Below are positions 3-8,898 of a stretch of DNA of 34,714 bases, one piece after another. The notes beneath the pieces were generated by a model. The model saw only the letters and a program-made list of their open reading frames with translations. It ran no database searches and was not told where the DNA came from. How positions within the stretch are numbered: the stretch's first letter is position 1; the number at the start of each line of letters is the position of its first letter. The translations under genes were made by a program, and so were the position numbers. This stretch comes from Acidimicrobiales bacterium (lineage in GTDB: Bacteria; Actinomycetota; Acidimicrobiia; Acidimicrobiales; RAAP-2): NCBI GenBank assembly GCA_017883075.1, contig JADGOI010000014.1, positions 1 through 34,714 of the forward strand, read 5' to 3'.

Positions 3-779
3 GCCTTCTACTCGGGCCTTGCGGTCCTGCTCCTCGCGGTTGAGTCGCCGATCGATTACTGGGCGAGCGACTACTTCTTCGTGCACATGCTCGAGCACCT
101 CCTCATCGCCTTCTACGCGCCGATCCTGATCGTCCTCGGTGCTCCGTGGATCCCCCTTCTCTTCGCGTTACCGGTAGGTGCTCGCAGAAAGGTGGGTCGC
201 TTCTTGATCCTCGGGCCCTGGTCACGGCTTCTTCGACGGGTCGGAAGATTTGTCACCGATCCATGGTTCGCCCTGATCTCCTTCAACGTCGTCATGGTCG
301 TCTGGCACTTTCCGGCCGTTTTCGACTTGTCCGAGCGCAACCAGACCGTTCATATCTGGCTGATGCACGGGAGCTTCTTCATCACCGGCGTGCTCTTCTG
401 GCTGCAGATCATCCCCTCGCACCCCTTCAGGTTGAAGGCCAGCCCGATCTGGCAGGCCGGAGCGATAGTCGGTACGAACATCGTGATGTTCGTGCTGGCC
501 ATGGCCCTGAGTATTTTCAGCGCGTCGAGTTGGTACTCGGTGTATGCACACCTACCCGGCGTGAATTTGGCACCCTTCGCCGACCAGCAGATCGGCGCCG
601 CCATCCTCTGGGTCTGTGGTGACTTCTGGGCGGTGCCGGCCCTCATTGTGGTGATCAAGCGGGCGATCGACCAGGAGGGATCAATCTCCAATGTGCTCGA
701 GCGGCTTTCGCACCGCACCGCCGCACCGGCCGTCCACGATCTGCGTCCGCAACGGACCAACACTGCCGACCGGACCTAG
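3..779 (+). CDS. ctaG: Cytochrome c oxidase assembly factor CtaG, caa3 type (5' partial)
   Basis: The reading frame is open from base 3, so the start lies before the window; 258 residues are visible. It is a polytopic membrane protein with the CtaG hallmarks: an ESPIDYW...HMLEHLL segment with paired histidines near the start of the visible part, a [11 protein letters not shown]-like loop, and a C-terminal [18 protein letters not shown] helix. CtaG proteins of this family assist copper loading or assembly of caa3-type oxidases in the membrane. The gene sits directly upstream of a complete oxidase operon, separated by about 190 bases with a likely promoter. A second, divergent CtaG closes that operon (5592-6437). 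Family assignment is firm; the metal-delivery role is inferred from the family and the neighbours. Confidence 0.9.
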
Positions 780-971: not shown

Positions 972-1649
972 ATGTCATTTGGGGGAAGGCTTTCCGTGGT
1001 CCTCGGACTCTTCGTCGTTGCCGCGGGGTTGGCTGTCTGGGCCGTGGTGGGCTTTATGCTCCCGACGACACCGACCGTCGACTTCACCGCCGCGCAGCCA
1101 TCGGGTGCCCCGGTGGACCTGACCGTGCAGACGGTGGGCACGATCGGATTCGGGGCACATCCCACATGGGTCTCGTACCTGGTGAAGAACCCGAGTGGCC
1201 AGTGGGTCCACTCGACCGTTTGGAAGGTGCCGGCGCATACCCGCATCAACCTGACCATCGAGCAGTACGACTCGGGGAGCCCCCTCCGCAATCAACAGTG
1301 GGGCCTCGTGGCCGGAACCACAGGCGGCGTCGCGACTCTCAATGGCAAGCCGATCGCTTTGTACGACTCCAACAGCGGCAACGGAGTTGGCCACACGTTT
1401 TCGATCCCGACCCTCGGAATCAGCGTTCCCTTGGTCGGTATAGCGGACGACGCCAAAAATCCCTGTAGTCAGGCACCGTGTACCACCGACTTTGACCACA
1501 ACGTCATCAAAGTCTCGTTCGTGACACCGGGGCCCGGTGAGTATCCGTGGCAGTGTTACGTGCCTTGCGGCTTGGGCTTCTTGTACGGAAATGGGGGACC
1601 CATGAGCACCCTTGGATACATGGGCGGCTTCCTGGATGTCACAGCGTGA
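972..1649 (+). CDS. Membrane-anchored CuA-like cupredoxin (subunit II-like)
   Basis: 225 residues with an N-terminal membrane helix (about 7-30) and an extracytoplasmic cupredoxin-like domain. His141 lies in GHTFSIPTLGI, which resembles the first CuA ligand region of oxidase subunit II (H-S/T-F-x-x-P). The C-terminal part has a CYVPCG pair (Cys195, Cys199) with the C-x3-C spacing of CuA, but the histidine normally four residues after the second cysteine is Phe203, and the methionine is displaced to Met211. A further cysteine pair is at 165 and 170. It is the first gene of the oxidase operon, and its stop overlaps the GTG start of ctaC. I infer an accessory electron-transfer or copper-binding subunit; a normal binuclear CuA site looks unlikely without the histidine. 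Confidence 0.7.
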   Translation: MSFGGRLSVVLGLFVVAAGLAVWAVVGFMLPTTPTVDFTAAQPSGAPVDLTVQTVGTIGFGAHPTWVSYLVKNPSGQWVHSTVWKVPAHTRINLTIEQYDSGSPLRNQQWGLVAGTTGGVATLNGKPIALYDSNSGNGVGHTFSIPTLGISVPLVGIADDAKNPCSQAPCTTDFDHNVIKVSFVTPGPGEYPWQCYVPCGLGFLYGNGGPMSTLGYMGGFLDVTA

Positions 1650-2623
1650 CCATCGACAACGCAGAATCTGAGGGCCAGGGCGTGGCGGCAGAGGCGGTGA
1701 TCGCACAGCCAGGCAAGGAACCTCGCCACATCTGGCGCATGGTCGCCATCTGGCTGGTCCTCTCCGCCGTTCTCGACCCCCTCTTCTATATTCTGGTTGG
1801 GCCCCACGTTCCCCCGGGGACGATGACCTCCGCGGCGAAGGACAATCAGTTCGACTTCAATATCCTGTTGGTGGCTGCCCTTCCGGTGTTTCTGGCGGTG
1901 TGGGTCTACCTCGCCTACTCGGCGGTGGTGTGGAGAGCTTCCCGCAAGGGTGCTCCTGAGCCGGTCGGAGGGGCGCAGGCCCGGACCCATCTCGGCGTGC
2001 AGGTCGGGTGGATCGTCACCACCACCGTGATCGTGCTCGGACTGTTCGCCTTCGGCACGGTCGAAGTGATCACCAAAGCCGGTTCCGGCGGAGGTGAAGG
2101 GCCCAATCCGATCTGGACTCCCACGTCGGCCACCATCCTGCCGGTGCAGGTCATCGCCCAGCAGTGGAAATTCACCTACCGCTACCCGACCTTCGGGGGG
2201 TTCGAGAGCCAGCAGCTCATTGTGCCCAACAACACCACCATCGCCTTCCACGTCACCTCGCTCGACGTGATCCATGGTTTCTGGGCCTATGAGTTGAGCA
2301 TCAAGGCTGATGCCAATCCCCAGCAGGACAACGTGGCCTACGCAACCACCCGTCAGACCGGAAGTGTGACCGTTCGATGTGAGGAGCTCTGCGGCTTGTG
2401 GCACGGAGCGATGTTCAACTACGGGAAGGTCGTCTCCAAAGCTGCCTTCATGGCCTGGGCGAAATCGACAGAGGCCGGCACTGCCGCCAATACCAAGCTC
2501 TTGCCGCCCTTTGCCTACACGTACGTGCCCGACGCAAACGGCTCCGATGGCGGGTACTACCCCGACAACGTGGATCCCTATAGCAACTCAGAGGTCTACG
2601 GGGCCAAGCCGGCGGCATCGTGA
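1646..2623 (+). CDS. ctaC: Cytochrome c oxidase subunit II
   Basis: 325 residues from a GTG start that overlaps the previous stop (GTGA). Three hydrophobic segments (about 30-51, 70-96, 117-142) precede a periplasm-facing cupredoxin domain. The CuA site is complete: His210 in DVIHGFW, then Cys245, Glu247, Cys249, His253 and Met256 in the C-x-E-x-C-x3-H-x2-M motif. An aromatic stretch QQWKFTYRYP at 172-181 corresponds to the electron-entry region. It takes electrons from cytochrome c or another carrier and passes them to subunit I. No cytochrome c domain is fused at the C-terminus, although CtaG neighbours are typical of caa3 systems. The frame is open to an upstream start at 1547, but that would overlap about 100 bases of the cupredoxin gene, so 1646 is preferred. 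Confidence 0.93.
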   Translation: MTIDNAESEGQGVAAEAVIAQPGKEPRHIWRMVAIWLVLSAVLDPLFYILVGPHVPPGTMTSAAKDNQFDFNILLVAALPVFLAVWVYLAYSAVVWRASRKGAPEPVGGAQARTHLGVQVGWIVTTTVIVLGLFAFGTVEVITKAGSGGGEGPNPIWTPTSATILPVQVIAQQWKFTYRYPTFGGFESQQLIVPNNTTIAFHVTSLDVIHGFWAYELSIKADANPQQDNVAYATTRQTGSVTVRCEELCGLWHGAMFNYGKVVSKAAFMAWAKSTEAGTAANTKLLPPFAYTYVPDANGSDGGYYPDNVDPYSNSEVYGAKPAAS

Positions 2624-2738: not shown

Positions 2739-4730
2739 ATGACCGTGACTGCCGAACGCGAGACTGAAGTTGTCTATCCCGACCCCACTCCACCTGTGCT
2801 CGGCGGATTTCAGGGATTGCCTCAGCGGCCCGGTTGGCTAAGCCAGCACCTAGGCACCGCGGCGATCGGAGCAGTGCTCGGGTATCTGCTGGGACACTGG
2901 CTCGGAAACGTCGTTGCCAGCGGTTATACGAACATCGCAGACAGCGGGGTAAACGCCGTGGCGATCACCGGGGGCCTGCTCCTCGGCGTCTTCGGATGGC
3001 TGTTGGGAATCGGCGCGTTGAACTATCCGCTGGCGAAGATGGTCGGCCTCGAACTGCGTCCCGATTATGAGTCGACCAGTTGGACCAGGTATCTGCGCTA
3101 CACCGTCGACCACAAAGTTGTGGGACTTCAGTACGTCATCGGCGTACTCGCATTCCTCTTCACCGGTGGGCTTCTGGCCATGGGGATCCGTACCGAGCTG
3201 CTCTCTCCCTCCAGTCACCTCTTCGGGCCGGGGACCTACATCGCCATCGTGAGCGAGCACGGCACGATCATGATGATGATGGCCACCTCGGTCATCGTGG
3301 GTCCGCTCGGCAACTGGCTGGTGCCGTTGATGATCGGAGCACGGCGAACCGCGTTCCCCAGGGTTGAAGCCTTCAGCTTCTGGATCTTCACTGCCGGGTA
3401 CCTGGTCATCCTCTCTGCCCTCTTCTACGGCGGGTTCCCCACCGGATGGACGGGCTACGCGCCTCTTCAGACCCAGGCCGGTGGAGGCATGATGTCCTAC
3501 CTGGTCGGCTTCGCCGTCATCGGGCTGGGCATGATGGCCGCCGGCTTCAACCTGGCGGTCACCATCATCAACTACCGAGCACCGGGTATGACCTGGAGCA
3601 GGATCCCCATCTTCGTGTGGTCCATCCTCGCCACCTGCGCCCTACTCACCCTGGCTACCCCGACCCTGGTGGCCGCAGGGTTCTTCGGCATCCTCGACCA
3701 CACCGCCCAGACTGCCTTCTTCGTGACCGAACACGGAGGAAGCTCCTTCCTCTGGGAGAACCTCTTCTGGTTCTTCGGCCACCCTGAGGTGTACATCATG
3801 GCCCTCCCCGGGTTCGGGATCGTCTTTGAGATCCTTCCGGTCTTCACGAGGAAGCCACTCTTCGCCTACAAGGTGGCGGCGGCGGGGATGGTGGGAGTCG
3901 CCCTCCTGTCGTTCTTCGTATGGCAGCACCACCTGTTCCAGAGTGGGATCAATCCGGACATGCGGCCGTTGTTCATGCTGACCACCGAGCTCATCTCGAT
4001 CCCGACCGGGTTCATCTACTTGGTGGGCCTGGGAACGCTCTACAAGGCGAAGATCAAGTTCGAAGTACCGATGCTCTTTGCACTGGCCCTCTTCTTTAAC
4101 TTCCTCATCGGCGGGATTACCGGAGTCTTCCTCTCCGATGTCCCGGTCAACGTGACCGTGCACGGAAGCTTCTTCGTCCTGGCCCACTTCCACTACACCA
4201 TCATGGGTGGATTGATCTTCGCCTTCTTCGGAGGCCTCTACTACTGGTTGCCGAAGATGACCGGCAAGACCATGAACAAGAAGCTGGGGCAGATCCACTT
4301 CTGGATCATGTTCATCTTCTTCAATCTGACCTTCTTCCCGATGTTCCTGATCGGCTTGCTCGGCCAGCCTCGTCGGGTATTCGAATATGCGCAGAACCTG
4401 CAGGCGCTCAACGATTTCTCATCGGTCAGCGCGTTCATCCTCGGTGCTTCGTTCCTTGTCTTCGTGGCCAACTTCGTGTGGTCGATCTTCATCAAGCCGA
4501 CTCCGGCGCCGGCCAACCCATGGGACTCGCTCGGACTCGAGTGGCAGACGCCGACTCCTGTCCCGTACTACAACTTTGAACGCATCCCCGTCGTTCTGAG
4601 TGATCCGTATCACTACAGCGAGGAGAACGCTCCCGCTGTCGCCGATCTCGGCGAAGAAGGTGTACTCGTAGCAGCTGGGGCTTCGTCCCCTGCGAGTGTC
4701 GCCGAGGATCCCCGACCGCCGGCCCAATGA
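2739..4730 (+). CDS. ctaD: Cytochrome c oxidase subunit I, divergent A-type
   Basis: 663 residues; the heme a/heme a3-CuB catalytic subunit that reduces oxygen to water in the membrane. Ligands are all present: His174 and His485 (low-spin heme), His483 (heme a3), His348, His397 and His398 (CuB). Glu350 and Tyr352 in GHPEVY match the A1 subtype. Against the Paracoccus numbering I remember, three proton-path or Mg positions differ: D124 is Arg203 (GARRTAFPR), K354 is Ile426 (IPTGFIYL), and the Mg ligand D404 is Gly476 (VHGSFF). Asn131 is Ala211. Two extra hydrophobic segments (about 38-60, 73-94) precede the usual first helix. The start is ATG with an AAGG-like site about 10 bases upstream. The frame is intact, so this is not a decayed gene. 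Confidence 0.95.
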   Translation: MTVTAERETEVVYPDPTPPVLGGFQGLPQRPGWLSQHLGTAAIGAVLGYLLGHWLGNVVASGYTNIADSGVNAVAITGGLLLGVFGWLLGIGALNYPLAKMVGLELRPDYESTSWTRYLRYTVDHKVVGLQYVIGVLAFLFTGGLLAMGIRTELLSPSSHLFGPGTYIAIVSEHGTIMMMMATSVIVGPLGNWLVPLMIGARRTAFPRVEAFSFWIFTAGYLVILSALFYGGFPTGWTGYAPLQTQAGGGMMSYLVGFAVIGLGMMAAGFNLAVTIINYRAPGMTWSRIPIFVWSILATCALLTLATPTLVAAGFFGILDHTAQTAFFVTEHGGSSFLWENLFWFFGHPEVYIMALPGFGIVFEILPVFTRKPLFAYKVAAAGMVGVALLSFFVWQHHLFQSGINPDMRPLFMLTTELISIPTGFIYLVGLGTLYKAKIKFEVPMLFALALFFNFLIGGITGVFLSDVPVNVTVHGSFFVLAHFHYTIMGGLIFAFFGGLYYWLPKMTGKTMNKKLGQIHFWIMFIFFNLTFFPMFLIGLLGQPRRVFEYAQNLQALNDFSSVSAFILGASFLVFVANFVWSIFIKPTPAPANPWDSLGLEWQTPTPVPYYNFERIPVVLSDPYHYSEENAPAVADLGEEGVLVAAGASSPASVAEDPRPPAQ

Positions 4731-5404
4731 GTGGAGACAACGCGGTGACTGATACAGCCGACAAACCCCAGATGTTCACCGAAACTCCCGAGGAGAGGGA
4801 GTTCGAACTGCGCGCTGCAGTCGGTGCCTACTGGTCCGGAGGGCGTCTGCTGATCGGCATGTTCACGTTCCTCTTCGCCTCGCTGGCCTTTGCCTACTTC
4901 TATTTGAGGTCGAACAATGCTGGGCAACTCTGGCGCCCCGGCGGTATAACCGCGCCGACCGGAATCGGTGGGGCAATCTTCGCCGTGGCGGTGGCGTCCT
5001 CACTGCTCGCCATCTACGGACAGGGGCGCCTTCGATCGGGATCGACCCTCGATTGGGAGGTGAGTGGCTGGACAGCGGTCCTCGGAGGACTTGTGGCCAT
5101 CGGACTCCAGATCTGGCAGCTGACCCAGCTTCCCTTCTTCCCCGGATCCAGCGGGTACGCATCGTGCTTCATCGGTTGGGCGGTGATGAACATCATGCTG
5201 CTCGTCAGCGGGGTGTACTGGCTCGAGACCAACCTGGCCCTCTGCATTCGACTGCGTCGCCTCGACGCCGAGGACGGGACACTGGCTACCTCGGTGGGTC
5301 CCGTCGCCCAGCTCTTTCGGGCCAATGTCGAGTCCTGCACGTACTTCTGGGGATTCATGGCGGTGGTGGGCGGCCTGTTCTGGGTGTTCTTCTACCTGAT
5401 CTGA
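4727..5404 (+). CDS. ctaE: Cytochrome c oxidase subunit III
   Basis: 225 residues; ATG overlaps the ctaD stop (ATGA), implying coupled translation. Five hydrophobic helices are visible (about 40-62, 77-98, 110-130, 146-168, 203-225), the usual count for short actinobacterial subunit III. The final helix, with YFWGFMAVVGGLFWVFFYL, corresponds to the family's C-terminal W-x-F-x-D-x-V-W region, although the usual histidine and aspartate are not kept. Subunit III stabilises subunit I and the proton-uptake region in known oxidases. Here it may matter that the D-channel mouth in subunit I is altered. Function is assigned from topology, length and position. Confidence 0.88.
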   Translation: MSGDNAVTDTADKPQMFTETPEEREFELRAAVGAYWSGGRLLIGMFTFLFASLAFAYFYLRSNNAGQLWRPGGITAPTGIGGAIFAVAVASSLLAIYGQGRLRSGSTLDWEVSGWTAVLGGLVAIGLQIWQLTQLPFFPGSSGYASCFIGWAVMNIMLLVSGVYWLETNLALCIRLRRLDAEDGTLATSVGPVAQLFRANVESCTYFWGFMAVVGGLFWVFFYLI

Positions 5405-5478: not shown

Positions 5479-5595
5479 GTGAGCGTTGCCACAGATAGCT
5501 TCATCGGGCCACAGATACTGACTCTCGCCATTCCCCTCGGCACCCTGTTCGTGGTCTGCCTCTGGGGATTCTTCCAGCGCCAGTCACACCGATGA
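5479..5595 (+). CDS. 38-residue single-helix membrane microprotein of the cox operon
   Basis: A GTG-started frame encodes VSVATDSFIGPQ followed by one hydrophobic helix of about 20 residues (ILTLAIPLGTLFVVCLWGFF) and a basic tail QRQSHR. Its TGA stop overlaps the ATG of the second ctaG (ATGA), the same junction used elsewhere in this operon. Helix plus cytoplasmic basic tail is typical of small oxidase subunits such as CcoQ or subunit IV types. I do not recognise a family. The overlap, strand, spacing (74 bases after ctaE) and composition support a real gene. A weak purine-rich stretch lies about 10-20 bases upstream. Role inferred: accessory subunit or assembly helper. Confidence 0.6.
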   Translation: MSVATDSFIGPQILTLAIPLGTLFVVCLWGFFQRQSHR

Positions 5596-6437
5596 ACCAA
5601 GGGGCCGCGTCACACCGGTCCCTCGAACCACAGGGCAGCAGAACTTACGAGGCCGATCGCGCATTCCTCTTTGTGGGGGCCGTCATACTGTTCATCGCCT
5701 GCCTGGTCCCACCGTTCTCCTCATACGCTCGGCGTTATGAATTCGTCGAGGCTCTCCAGTTCGCCATATTGGCTGTGGTGGTTCCCGTATTGGTAGTCAG
5801 TGGATCGCCCTGGCGTCTGCTCCGCATTGCTGAACACCTACCTCCAGAGGACCGTGATAATGCGGGCTCGGGGGCGAACTCACTGCGGTTGGTGGACGAG
5901 TTGGCCGCTCATCGGCGGCGCCATCCTGAGGCGCTACGCAGCGTGCTCTTTGCTTCCCTGTTTCTTGCTGGGGTGACGCTCTGGAGGATTCCATTGACGG
6001 TCGATGCCTTAGTCAGGCATCCGTGGTTGGTGGGCGTCGAAGCGGTCACCTTGTTGATGGTCGGCGTCGGCCTCTGGCTCGAGCTGATCGAATCCCCTCC
6101 CCTCTCACCGAGGCTGTCACGACCCAACCGGATCGCCTTGGCCGCTGTCTCCATGTGGACAATCTGGGTCCTCGCCTACCTGGTCGGACTATCGCATGGG
6201 GCGTGGTATCACGCCTACTCGCATCACCCGGGGCAGGGCCTCAGTCTCTCTGCCGACCAGCAGCTGACGACAGGGATGATGTGGTTCGTTTGCGGTTGTG
6301 CATTCATTCCGGTCATCTTCTGGAACCTGATCCGCTGGTTACAGTCGGAGGAGGATCCAGACGCAGAACTGCACCGCCTGGTGCGACAGGATCGAACCCG
6401 GGGTCGCTCATTGGATAGCGGCCAAACCTCGCCGTAA
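5592..6437 (+). CDS. ctaG: Second CtaG-like oxidase assembly protein
   Basis: 281 residues, polytopic, last gene of the oxidase operon, ATG overlapping the stop of the microprotein. Its C-terminal half matches CtaG: LSADQQLTTGMMWFVCG aligns with [15 protein letters not shown] of the first ctaG, preceded by a HGAWYHAYSHHPG loop with several histidines. The N-terminal half is much less like the first copy; it has an RRYEFVEALQFAIL helix and a charged loop (about 85-120) not seen there. The two copies are therefore old paralogs rather than a recent duplication. It likely assists copper insertion or assembly of the adjacent oxidase. Confidence 0.82.
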   Translation: MNQGAASHRSLEPQGSRTYEADRAFLFVGAVILFIACLVPPFSSYARRYEFVEALQFAILAVVVPVLVVSGSPWRLLRIAEHLPPEDRDNAGSGANSLRLVDELAAHRRRHPEALRSVLFASLFLAGVTLWRIPLTVDALVRHPWLVGVEAVTLLMVGVGLWLELIESPPLSPRLSRPNRIALAAVSMWTIWVLAYLVGLSHGAWYHAYSHHPGQGLSLSADQQLTTGMMWFVCGCAFIPVIFWNLIRWLQSEEDPDAELHRLVRQDRTRGRSLDSGQTSP

Positions 6438-6475: not shown

Positions 6476-7150
6476 TCAGGTGCCGACGAGGTGTGGAAGA
6501 GCCGGCAGGTCGGGCATCGGCAGCTTGGCACCGAGAATCCTGTCGGCCGCTTCCACATAGGCGTCGGCTCGGGCCCGATCCTTGGCAAGCAGGCCCTCCT
6601 GCTTGGTGAGGTCTGCGATCGTCGAAGTACTTCCCGAGTTGACAGAGAGATTTTGGATGTCCTCGATGGCGGCGAGTGCATCGGAGCTTACCCAGAGGGT
6701 GGACACGTCAACCACCTGCCCGATGTTCTTTCCCGCTGGTGAACCCGACGCCTGCACATTGGAGAGGTCGAAGATGTCACTGTTGGTGAACGAGCAGGCG
6801 GTCTGGTCATCTCGCAGCATGGACGGCGTCAGCGATCGATCAGCAGCGGACAATTGACCCGTCTTCATGTCCTGGTAGATGGTGAATGTCTCCTGGATGG
6901 CATAGGCACATCCTCCGACGTCGGTATTGATCTCATGCATGATGCTGGTTTGGTCGGCAATGTCGGCGGAGACGGTGGTGTGGCTGGGCAGATCGACAAT
7001 TACCGAGGCGGCGACGACGACGACGACTGCCGCGGTGACCAGGACCCACGTTCGCTTGTACCAGGCGCCCTTTGTCGGCGTCTCGGCAATGATGCCGTCC
7101 AGATCAAATGGATCCTGGGGATCGGATGGGCTGGCGATGTTGTCGGTCAT
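6476..7150 (-). CDS. Membrane-anchored protein of unknown function downstream of sco
   Basis: 224 residues; acidic cytoplasmic N-terminus, one membrane helix at about 35-53, then an extracytoplasmic, mostly helical domain with two cysteines (81 and 119) that could form a disulfide. I recognise no family or catalytic motif. Its ATG overlaps the stop of the sco gene (ATGA), so it is translated with the TlpA-Sco operon and probably takes part in copper delivery or thiol handling for the oxidase. It converges on the second ctaG with only 38 bases between stops. Confidence 0.8.
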   Translation of the reverse strand: MTDNIASPSDPQDPFDLDGIIAETPTKGAWYKRTWVLVTAAVVVVVAASVIVDLPSHTTVSADIADQTSIMHEINTDVGGCAYAIQETFTIYQDMKTGQLSAADRSLTPSMLRDDQTACSFTNSDIFDLSNVQASGSPAGKNIGQVVDVSTLWVSSDALAAIEDIQNLSVNSGSTSTIADLTKQEGLLAKDRARADAYVEAADRILGAKLPMPDLPALPHLVGT

Positions 7151-8079
7151 GAGGGCCCTCCAACCAGGCTTTCGGCCGCGTGGGCCATCCCTTGGGCGAA
7201 TTTCTGAATGCTGTCGGGGGACAGGGTGTAGATGCCGAAATGATCCTCATTTGCGAACGGGGTGGCGCGCAGTGTCAGCCGGCCACTGGGATCGATGAAA
7301 TACATGATGTCACTGTGGGTGACCACCCGCGTCTTCTTCCCGACCGCAATGGTGATGCCATAACCGGTCCAGATGCGATTGAGATCGGTGACGGGCCCAT
7401 TGAGAAACGTAACGTTCGCCAGGTTCGCGAGGCCAGTCTGGGTCAGGGCGGGTGGGGACGGGACGACGGATGTCTGCAAGGGGTCCGAGTTGACGATCAC
7501 AAAGTCAACCGCGGCAATCCTTGGACCCAGCAGTTGATCGGCTTGGGCGATTTCCTTGGCGAGCACCGGGCAGATGTCGTCGCACGCTGAGTTGAAGAAG
7601 GCAAGGACGGTCACCTTACCCGGGGCGTATGCAAGGGTCCAGGGTTTGCCGTTGGGATCCTGTAGGGAAATTGCGGGGGCTCGGTTGCCGGCTAGTTGGC
7701 TCAGTCCTATGAACGCATTCAGGGACGCGCTGACGGGAGGAGCGCTGGGCGGGGCGGGCGCGGGGGGCGGGGTGTCGCTGGTTCCAGCCAGGGTGGTCGG
7801 CGGGGTGGCGATCAGTGCGCTGACCCCTGCATTGCCGATGAAATGCTCGGTCAGGACACCGCCCACAGCGAGAACCGCGAACCCGGCGATGATCCAATGG
7901 ATGAACTTTCGGGGGACCGGCACTGATCCGGCACGGAGTGCTGCCCCTCGGTCGATAGGTACTTTGCCGGTGGCGAATGCCGTGGCGCGATCCTCGGGCG
8001 AAAGGTGCGCTCGAGGGTGGGCAATCGGTCCGTCAGTCGGCGGCGCCGTGGTTGTCCTGTCCGGGGGATCGCTGGTCAC
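7147..8079 (-). CDS. sco: Sco1/SenC-type copper chaperone
   Basis: 310 residues from a GTG start overlapping the stop of the TlpA gene (GTGA). A long cytoplasmic N-terminus (about 1-57) leads to a membrane helix at about 60-80, a Pro/Ala-rich linker (about 100-118) and a thioredoxin-fold domain. The Sco copper-site residues are present: Cys166 and Cys170 in CDDICP (C-x3-C-P) and His255 in VVTHSDIMYFID. Sco proteins deliver copper or reduce the CuA cysteines of subunit II. The oxidase operon with subunit II lies just across the convergent junction. The 57-residue cytoplasmic extension is longer than usual for Sco. Confidence 0.88.
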   Translation of the reverse strand: MTSDPPDRTTTAPPTDGPIAHPRAHLSPEDRATAFATGKVPIDRGAALRAGSVPVPRKFIHWIIAGFAVLAVGGVLTEHFIGNAGVSALIATPPTTLAGTSDTPPPAPAPPSAPPVSASLNAFIGLSQLAGNRAPAISLQDPNGKPWTLAYAPGKVTVLAFFNSACDDICPVLAKEIAQADQLLGPRIAAVDFVIVNSDPLQTSVVPSPPALTQTGLANLANVTFLNGPVTDLNRIWTGYGITIAVGKKTRVVTHSDIMYFIDPSGRLTLRATPFANEDHFGIYTLSPDSIQKFAQGMAHAAESLVGGPS

Positions 8080-8693
8080 GGCGTCGCCGTCTTGGTGGTC
8101 AGGACAGCTGCCCAGTGGCGCAGAGACGCAAGCGACTGGGCCCCGAACGCCGCATGGACCACCCGGCCGTTCGAGTCGAGGAAGTAGGTGACCGGCAGAG
8201 CATTCAGGAGATAGGAAGTCGCCACGGTTGCGTCACCGTCGACGGCGACGGGATAGGAGGCCTTGGCACCAGCGAGGAGAGTCTGGGCGGCCGATCCGTT
8301 GGAGTCATTCGAATCGACTCCGATGATGGCCACCCGTCCGGCCGACTGAGCGGACAACGCTGCAAATGCGGAGAGTTCGGCCTGGCAATTCCGACACCAC
8401 GAGGCGAAGAAGTTGACGATGGTCGGCTCCCCTCTGGTACCCGCCAGTGAGACCGGTGGCCCCCCACCCAGGCGGGGAAGGACAAAGGCGGGTGCCTCGC
8501 TGCCGATTGCGAGTGTCGCCGGTGGCGTCACCGGGTAGGACACCGAGCGCTGGCTGTGCGGTCGGGTCGCCACGTAGGCGATGAAGCCGATGAGGAAGAG
8601 CGCCGCCAACGCTGCCAGCAATTTCCATACTTGCTCGCCTTTCTTGACCGGCGTCTTCTCGGAGGTCGATCCGGGCTGTTCGGTGAGCATCAT
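8076..8693 (-). CDS. TlpA-like membrane-anchored thioredoxin
   Basis: About 205 residues starting at one of two adjacent ATGs (8693 or 8690). An upstream in-frame start at 8894 would add an arginine-rich stretch that does not look like protein, so it is not used. A membrane helix lies at about 24-43. The extracytoplasmic redoxin domain carries the WCRNC active site (Cys100, Cys103) and a conserved cis-proline region LPVTYFLD. In known systems TlpA reduces the cysteines of Sco and of CuA before copper loading. The gene overlaps sco by 4 bases, which supports the same role here. Confidence 0.87.
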   Translation of the reverse strand: MMLTEQPGSTSEKTPVKKGEQVWKLLAALAALFLIGFIAYVATRPHSQRSVSYPVTPPATLAIGSEAPAFVLPRLGGGPPVSLAGTRGEPTIVNFFASWCRNCQAELSAFAALSAQSAGRVAIIGVDSNDSNGSAAQTLLAGAKASYPVAVDGDATVATSYLLNALPVTYFLDSNGRVVHAAFGAQSLASLRHWAAVLTTKTATP

Positions 8694-8846
8694 CGAGCTG
8701 TCTTCGAAACCGAGGATGAGGTCGTTCGGCGCCCACGTCGGCCGCAACGTAGAGCATCGCAAGGCCGGCCGTGGAGGAGCGCACCCGGTTCGTTCACCAC
8801 GATGATCCGGAATTCGCACAGTACTGCGGACGTCGATAAGGCGGGC

Positions 8847-8898
8847 AGCGGTGAGGATCGGTGCGGTGGCGACAGAGGTGAAGGCGATCCTCACCGCT
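8847..8898. repeat. Perfect 14-bp inverted repeat with 24-base loop
   Basis: AGCGGTGAGGATCG at 8847-8860 and its exact complement CGATCCTCACCGCT at 8885-8898. It lies about 155-205 bases upstream of the TlpA start on the minus strand. A second, shorter hairpin (GCTCGC 8896-8901 with GCGAGC 8912-8917) shares three bases with the right arm, so the two stems cannot be complete at the same time. No T-run flanks it. Confidence 0.65.

Follow-up and report, generated by a model that had tools for sequence, protein, structure and literature searches.

Background

AcoP of Acidithiobacillus is a membrane-anchored, cox-linked protein that takes electrons from cytochrome c4 and has a potential of +566 mV (PMC4059628, PMC5982212); its ligands are H85 and C159-X6-H166-X4-M171 (PMC4059628). 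Membrane-bound cupredoxins, the 'Cup' of Degli Esposti et al. 2021, are also found with a basal COX1 group that has extra N-terminal transmembrane segments (TMs) and includes iron oxidisers (PMC8239418). Sulfocyanin of Ferroplasma, an oxidase-associated copper protein of an acidophile, is reported to have a rusticyanin-type ligand set (PMC10654088).

Cupredoxin copper sites serve as a standard model of redox-metal tuning by proteins. With few exceptions they are either type 1, with two His and one Cys, or CuA, with two His and two Cys. A set of one His, two Cys and two Met that is shared by a large natural family would add a third to these recurring solutions. Here we describe a family of this kind, represented by the COX-linked cupredoxin cup, which we consider to be probably a membrane-anchored copper electron carrier that is permanently partnered, in Acidimicrobiales and their actinobacterial relatives, with a distinct kind of A-family oxidase. 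COX-associated cupredoxins as such are already known; what is new is the ligand set, which matched no described family that we found in a limited search of the open-access literature. Cup bears on the open question of the part played by AcoP-like cupredoxins when a complete CuA is already present, and also on oxidases that do not have the textbook proton channels.

The cup gene and its oxidase cluster

The window, by which we mean the whole stretch of 34,714 nucleotides that was analysed, belongs to a 2.8 Mb assembly with a completeness of 94% (contig G000:C42). Cup has an ATG start, encodes 225 amino acids with a single N-terminal TM, and ends with a 4-bp overlap onto ctaC, which begins with GTG (Table 1). 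The initial annotation of this ORF, based on the sequence alone, is confirmed in its observations: H141, the C195-x3-C199 pair and F203 at the position of the second CuA His are as described, and the adjoining subunit II does have a complete CuA. Its 'displaced Met' needs amending, for the Met is indeed shifted by a longer loop, but there are two invariant Met residues (M211, M217) rather than one. The motif thus reads C-x3-C-x11-M-x5-M, without a second His.

Table 1. Features of the cup-oxidase cluster and its surroundings, in window coordinates
Feature	Position	Strand	Basis or remarks
ctaG, upstream copy	81..779	+	PF09678 E 3.3e-37; without N-terminal part of family model; contig begins just upstream
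COX-linked cupredoxin 'cup'	972..1649	+	TM anchor residues 3-29; cupredoxin domain; candidate copper ligands H141, C195, C199, M211, M217
ctaC, subunit II, complete CuA (H210, C245, E247, C249, H253, M256)	1646..2623	+	PF00116 E 4.7e-12; GTG start
ctaD, A-family COX1	2739..4730	+	PF00115 E 4.6e-126
ctaE-like subunit III	4727..5404	+	Position, TM pattern, conservation; no Pfam match at E<1
38-aa single-TM ORF	5479..5595	+	Conserved between ctaE and ctaG
ctaG (Caa3_CtaG assembly factor), downstream copy	5592..6437	+	Caa3_CtaG family
SCO1/SenC-like, CxxxCP and distal His (ordinary CuA assembly factor)	7147..8079	-	PF02630 E 1e-10
TlpA-like thioredoxin-fold protein	8076..8894	-	PF00578 E 3.9e-17

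A scan of genome contigs yielded 65 related loci, mostly labelled Acidimicrobiaceae, Acidimicrobiales or Actinomycetes. The cup-ctaC pair was kept wherever the contig was long enough, and almost every long locus continued with ctaD, ctaE and ctaG. In 11 diverged loci, some of them from other families and apparently from other classes of the phylum, the genes again stand in the order cup-ctaC-ctaD-ctaE, which bears out the proposed link between cup and the oxidase. Distances between cup sequences correlate with those of ctaD (Mantel r 0.93) and ctaC (r 0.95; p 0.001) about as those of ctaC and ctaD do with each other (0.94); as a comparison of sequence distances, this co-divergence is a mark of vertical co-inheritance and no proof of contact.

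Among public genomes, the closest relatives are Acidimicrobiaceae assemblies obtained from samples of palsa, bog and the like; in one of them cup is 98% identical. The habitats of cup-carrying actinobacteria are acid soil and mine water. Records titled Acidobacteria/Acidobacteriota or Saccharibacteria (L010, L047, L051, L060, L064 and L026) also contain this cluster, 56-64% identical; these are probably mislabelled bins rather than cases of transfer. Two further features of the cluster deserve mention. The 38-aa ORF (VSVATDSFIGPQILTLAIPLGTLFVVCLWGFFQRQSHR) occupies the ctaE-ctaG interval in 51 of 52 related loci and is a candidate for an unannotated small oxidase subunit. The two ctaG copies flank the cluster, and the upstream one is also present in many related loci, where the copies are 26-32% identical.

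Conservation of the candidate copper ligands

Profile searches found cup matches in 69 of the 298 genomes of the order and recovered diverged members in a set of 397 genomes from the phylum; complete distinct members of the family number at least 125. The pattern CxxPC-x(3-12)-M-x5-M-x-G was kept in all 125 complete non-redundant members; the only two members without it are truncated or damaged. Among 66 cup sequences, H141, C165, C170, C195, C199, M211 and M217 were invariant where present. In an alignment of 36 homologues, whose identity to the window cup ranges from 21 to 80%, the invariant columns were D100, H141, C195, P198, C199, M211, M217, G219 and V223. His, Cys and Met account for five of these nine columns as against 13 of the 225 residues of the protein (hypergeometric P 3e-5), and because of this enrichment the conservation of the ligands cannot be put down to chance.

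Other potential ligands fell away. H63, H80, H89 and H176 were rejected since each is replaced in some close or diverged homologues. The second Cys pair, C165/C170, which the initial annotation missed, is conserved in the close clade only, and was rejected because it is missing from the diverged COX-linked branch and from the NrfD-linked paralogues described below. The ligand loop of the COX-linked branch contains no conserved His. Several short NrfD-linked paralogues have a His after the first Met of the motif, so their site may differ.

The site had been described as a degenerate or broken CuA. We found instead no variation in the H-C-C-M-M set across a family that is large and deeply diverged, and for this reason we regard it as a distinct, maintained site and not as decay. 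Specifically, C195, C199 and H141, whose loss in homologues had been named as evidence against a copper site, are invariant.

Some cupredoxin-fold subunits of oxidases carry no copper, for example subunit II of quinol oxidases. Cup could by this precedent be a structural or accessory oxidase subunit that holds a C195-C199 disulfide and no metal, and the C165/C170 pair of the close clade does resemble a disulfide. We think this very unlikely, because a disulfide leaves unexplained why H141, M211 and M217, too, stay unchanged in homologues of as little as approximately 21% identity. A metal-free structural subunit was one of the three roles proposed initially; it is disfavored by the invariance of the five potential ligands, and of the three an extra electron carrier fits best.

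Fold and type of the probable copper site

Family databases did not place cup. Pfam gave no match to the window protein at E<1, including PF00116 and the sulfocyanin family, Pfam and NCBIfam scans of cup and 40 homologues matched no family, and COX2 was not matched in the 40 homologues at E<0.1. A single-sequence search of the PDB returned only chance glucokinase matches, and the narrow alignment (A1) had no significant match there. With the wide alignment (A2), a profile search of PDB chains reached 6kol and auracyanin A at E 2-4e-4, while the AcoP entries 7z3g, 7z3b and 7z3i were not significant (E 0.9-2.4).

Both AF2 models (pLDDT 80 and 84.5) consist of an N-terminal helix, residues 3-29, and a beta-sandwich. 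In Foldseek searches against the PDB, rusticyanin ranked first for both (E 2.3e-5 and 4.5e-5; prob 1.00), with COX subunit II also among the best matches of both (prob 1.00); AcoP (7z3i) was matched more weakly than rusticyanin, at E 1.7e-3. TM-scores to rusticyanin are 0.46-0.52, modest values which we attribute to the anchor and to insertions. On these models cup is a member of the cupredoxin superfamily, and the fold assumed at the outset stands. Profile-profile alignment to the CtaC family (E 2.4e-6, probability 89%) places C195 on C245, C199 on C249 and H141 on H210.

As to the type of site, H141, C195, M211 or C199, and M217 could hold a single copper in a type 1-like arrangement in which a Met replaces the second His, and we give this just under an even chance. 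The best structural matches are rusticyanins, among them the engineered His143Met form 2CAL; M217 lies directly before the last strand, like an axial Met, and the short paralogues keep the same order. A plain type 1 site is harder to square with the C-x3-C pair, which matches CuA in spacing and alignment, and would have no need of the invariant C199. This alternative concerns the site and not the role, and is compatible with an electron carrier.

The partner oxidase

Judged by its sequence, the partner CtaD is an A-family heme-copper oxidase that has neither the textbook K-channel Lys nor the D-channel Asp. It keeps the HPEVY motif and all heme and CuB ligands, with active-site residues H348, E350, Y352, H397, H398, H483 and H485. 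Compared with the solved actinobacterial oxidases 8hcr and 9wcx, the K-channel Lys (PTGIK) is replaced by I426, the D-channel Asp by R203 and the Asn by E210. The K-channel Lys is missing from every cup-linked CtaD; the D-channel Asp is kept in the diverged CtaD branch and lost in the window clade. An N-terminal extension of about 110 residues, with one or more predicted extra TMs, appears to be in line with the basal COX1 group (PMC8239418). As a separate observation, E417 and E210 are nearly invariant in the CtaD proteins without these Lys and Asp residues.

The initial annotation suggested looking for co-occurrence of cup with the altered ctaD. We searched the 298 genomes of the order with the DNA pattern TELIS-x-PTG, which gave 42 sites, and took cup positions from the profile search of the order. 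Cup was directly upstream in 38 of the 40 assessable genes for CtaD without the K-channel Lys; the 2 further sites are at contig ends (G438:C37, G554:C44). The suggestion was right, though the association is not absolute, since two such genes (G542 and G410) have no cup, and a strict one-to-one link was therefore rejected. These two exceptions (L184 and L185) have HPAVY in place of HPEVY and fall on a separate COX1 branch; a small tree of CtaD separates them from the cup-linked genes with support of 0.999.

NrfD-linked paralogues and the probable function of cup

Elsewhere in the order, genomes have cup paralogues next to the genes for a 4Fe-4S protein and NrfD. In loci L137 to L146 (for example L139:4345-9536 and L145:5117-9924), cup is followed by a 4Fe-4S protein of about 310 aa, an NrfD of about 510 aa and a protein of approximately 200-215 aa that has no Pfam match; the cluster is found in many Acidimicrobiales, and in several loci a short cup (C-x3-C-x3-4-M-x5-M) comes next. 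The pairing of 4Fe-4S proteins with NrfD is known from quinone-interacting complexes, and the cluster is possibly a quinol-oxidising module with cupredoxins as acceptors. Two other loci, L090 (G242:C15) and L091 (G221:C95), have three to four tandem cup paralogues and no cox genes nearby. In the host genome of the window we found no NrfD, so that an NrfD module was rejected as the electron donor in this organism. That genome also contains a second, canonical aa3 oxidase, and its only c-type cytochrome hit (PF13442, PF00034) is a diheme QcrC-like frame near a Rieske gene on contig C45.

The main functional rival to the carrier role is copper delivery. Like Sco and PCuAC, cup would hold Cu(I) with its C-x3-C, His and Met residues and pass it to CtaC for assembly of CuA. 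The ligands are of the soft, Cu(I) type, C-x3-C plus His is similar to the Sco set, and the gene sits directly upstream of ctaC and overlaps it, in a cluster flanked by two ctaG copies. We nevertheless hold this to be unlikely: Sco-like (CxxxCP) and TlpA-like proteins are already in the window, which makes another delivery protein less needed, and no CuA protein was found among the neighbors of the NrfD-linked paralogues that share its ligand set, where electron transfer fits better.

Because of the 4Fe-4S/NrfD respiratory context of the paralogues, an electron-transfer role is the most economical one for the family as a whole. For cup itself, the carrier role is favored by the cupredoxin fold, the single anchor, the invariant ligand set, the conserved operon and the co-divergence with CtaC and CtaD, as well as by the frequent presence of cup before the altered ctaD, by a host with no c-type cytochrome beyond the diheme protein and by the precedent of AcoP (PMC4059628, PMC5982212). 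On the other side, the oxidase could in principle do without an extra carrier, given the complete CuA of its subunit II; two CtaD genes have neither the K-channel Lys nor a cup upstream, so that this COX1 feature alone does not need it; and the predicted ligand loop is the least confident region of the model (residues 200-204, pLDDT <50). As a carrier, cup would be attached to the oxidase and bind copper through the H-C-C-M-M set at the outer face of the membrane. Its sulfur-rich coordination would be expected to give a high potential, and it may pass electrons to the CuA of CtaC, or buffer or protect that center, as proposed for AcoP of acidophilic iron oxidisers.

A more specific proposal, which we put forward tentatively and regard as rather doubtful, is that H141, C195, C199, M211 and M217 form a natural dinuclear CuA-like center with Met in place of the second His. 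This center would serve as a carrier throughout the family. One branch would have it bound to an oxidase that lacks the K channel, the other to a quinol module of the 4Fe-4S/NrfD type, in respiratory links that need no soluble cytochrome c.

Comparison with known systems

Cup has the ligand set of neither CuA, type 1 nor AcoP sites, and it falls in no Pfam or NCBIfam family. It shares with the CuA domain (PF00116) the cupredoxin fold, the first His and C-x3-C-G at matching positions. It departs from the CuA motif (H, C-x-E-x-C-x3-H-x2-M) in that Phe203 replaces the second His, a position at which no homologue has a His, in that the Glu position is not kept, and in that Met residues lie at +12 and +18 from C199 rather than at +7. 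Type 1 blue copper sites have two His, one Cys and usually one Met; cup has one invariant His, with C199, M211 and M217 invariant as well. Rusticyanin- and auracyanin-type proteins are the best structural and profile matches, but theirs is the type 1 set of two His and one Cys. Among the chaperones, Sco has a thioredoxin fold and PCuAC a characteristic Met/His motif, whereas cup has a cupredoxin fold and no Pfam match. The sulfocyanin-linked oxidases resemble the present case in that a copper protein of an acidophile is tied to an oxidase, and differ in their rusticyanin-type ligands (PMC10654088) and in the Pfam family, which cup does not match.

AcoP, which is further marked by a green copper site, a high potential and binding to both cytochrome c4 and the oxidase, has several features in common with cup. 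Each is an N-terminally membrane-anchored single-domain cupredoxin in a COX gene cluster of acidophiles (PMC4059628, PMC8239418), with a long loop from the Cys to the last Met and a partner COX1 that has an N-terminal TM extension. Cup differs from AcoP in its lack of a second His, in an additional Cys four residues after the first, and in having two Met. We have not classified cup as an AcoP, because the ligand set differs and the sequence relationship is not significant; by analogy of role, AcoP appears to be the closest known system.
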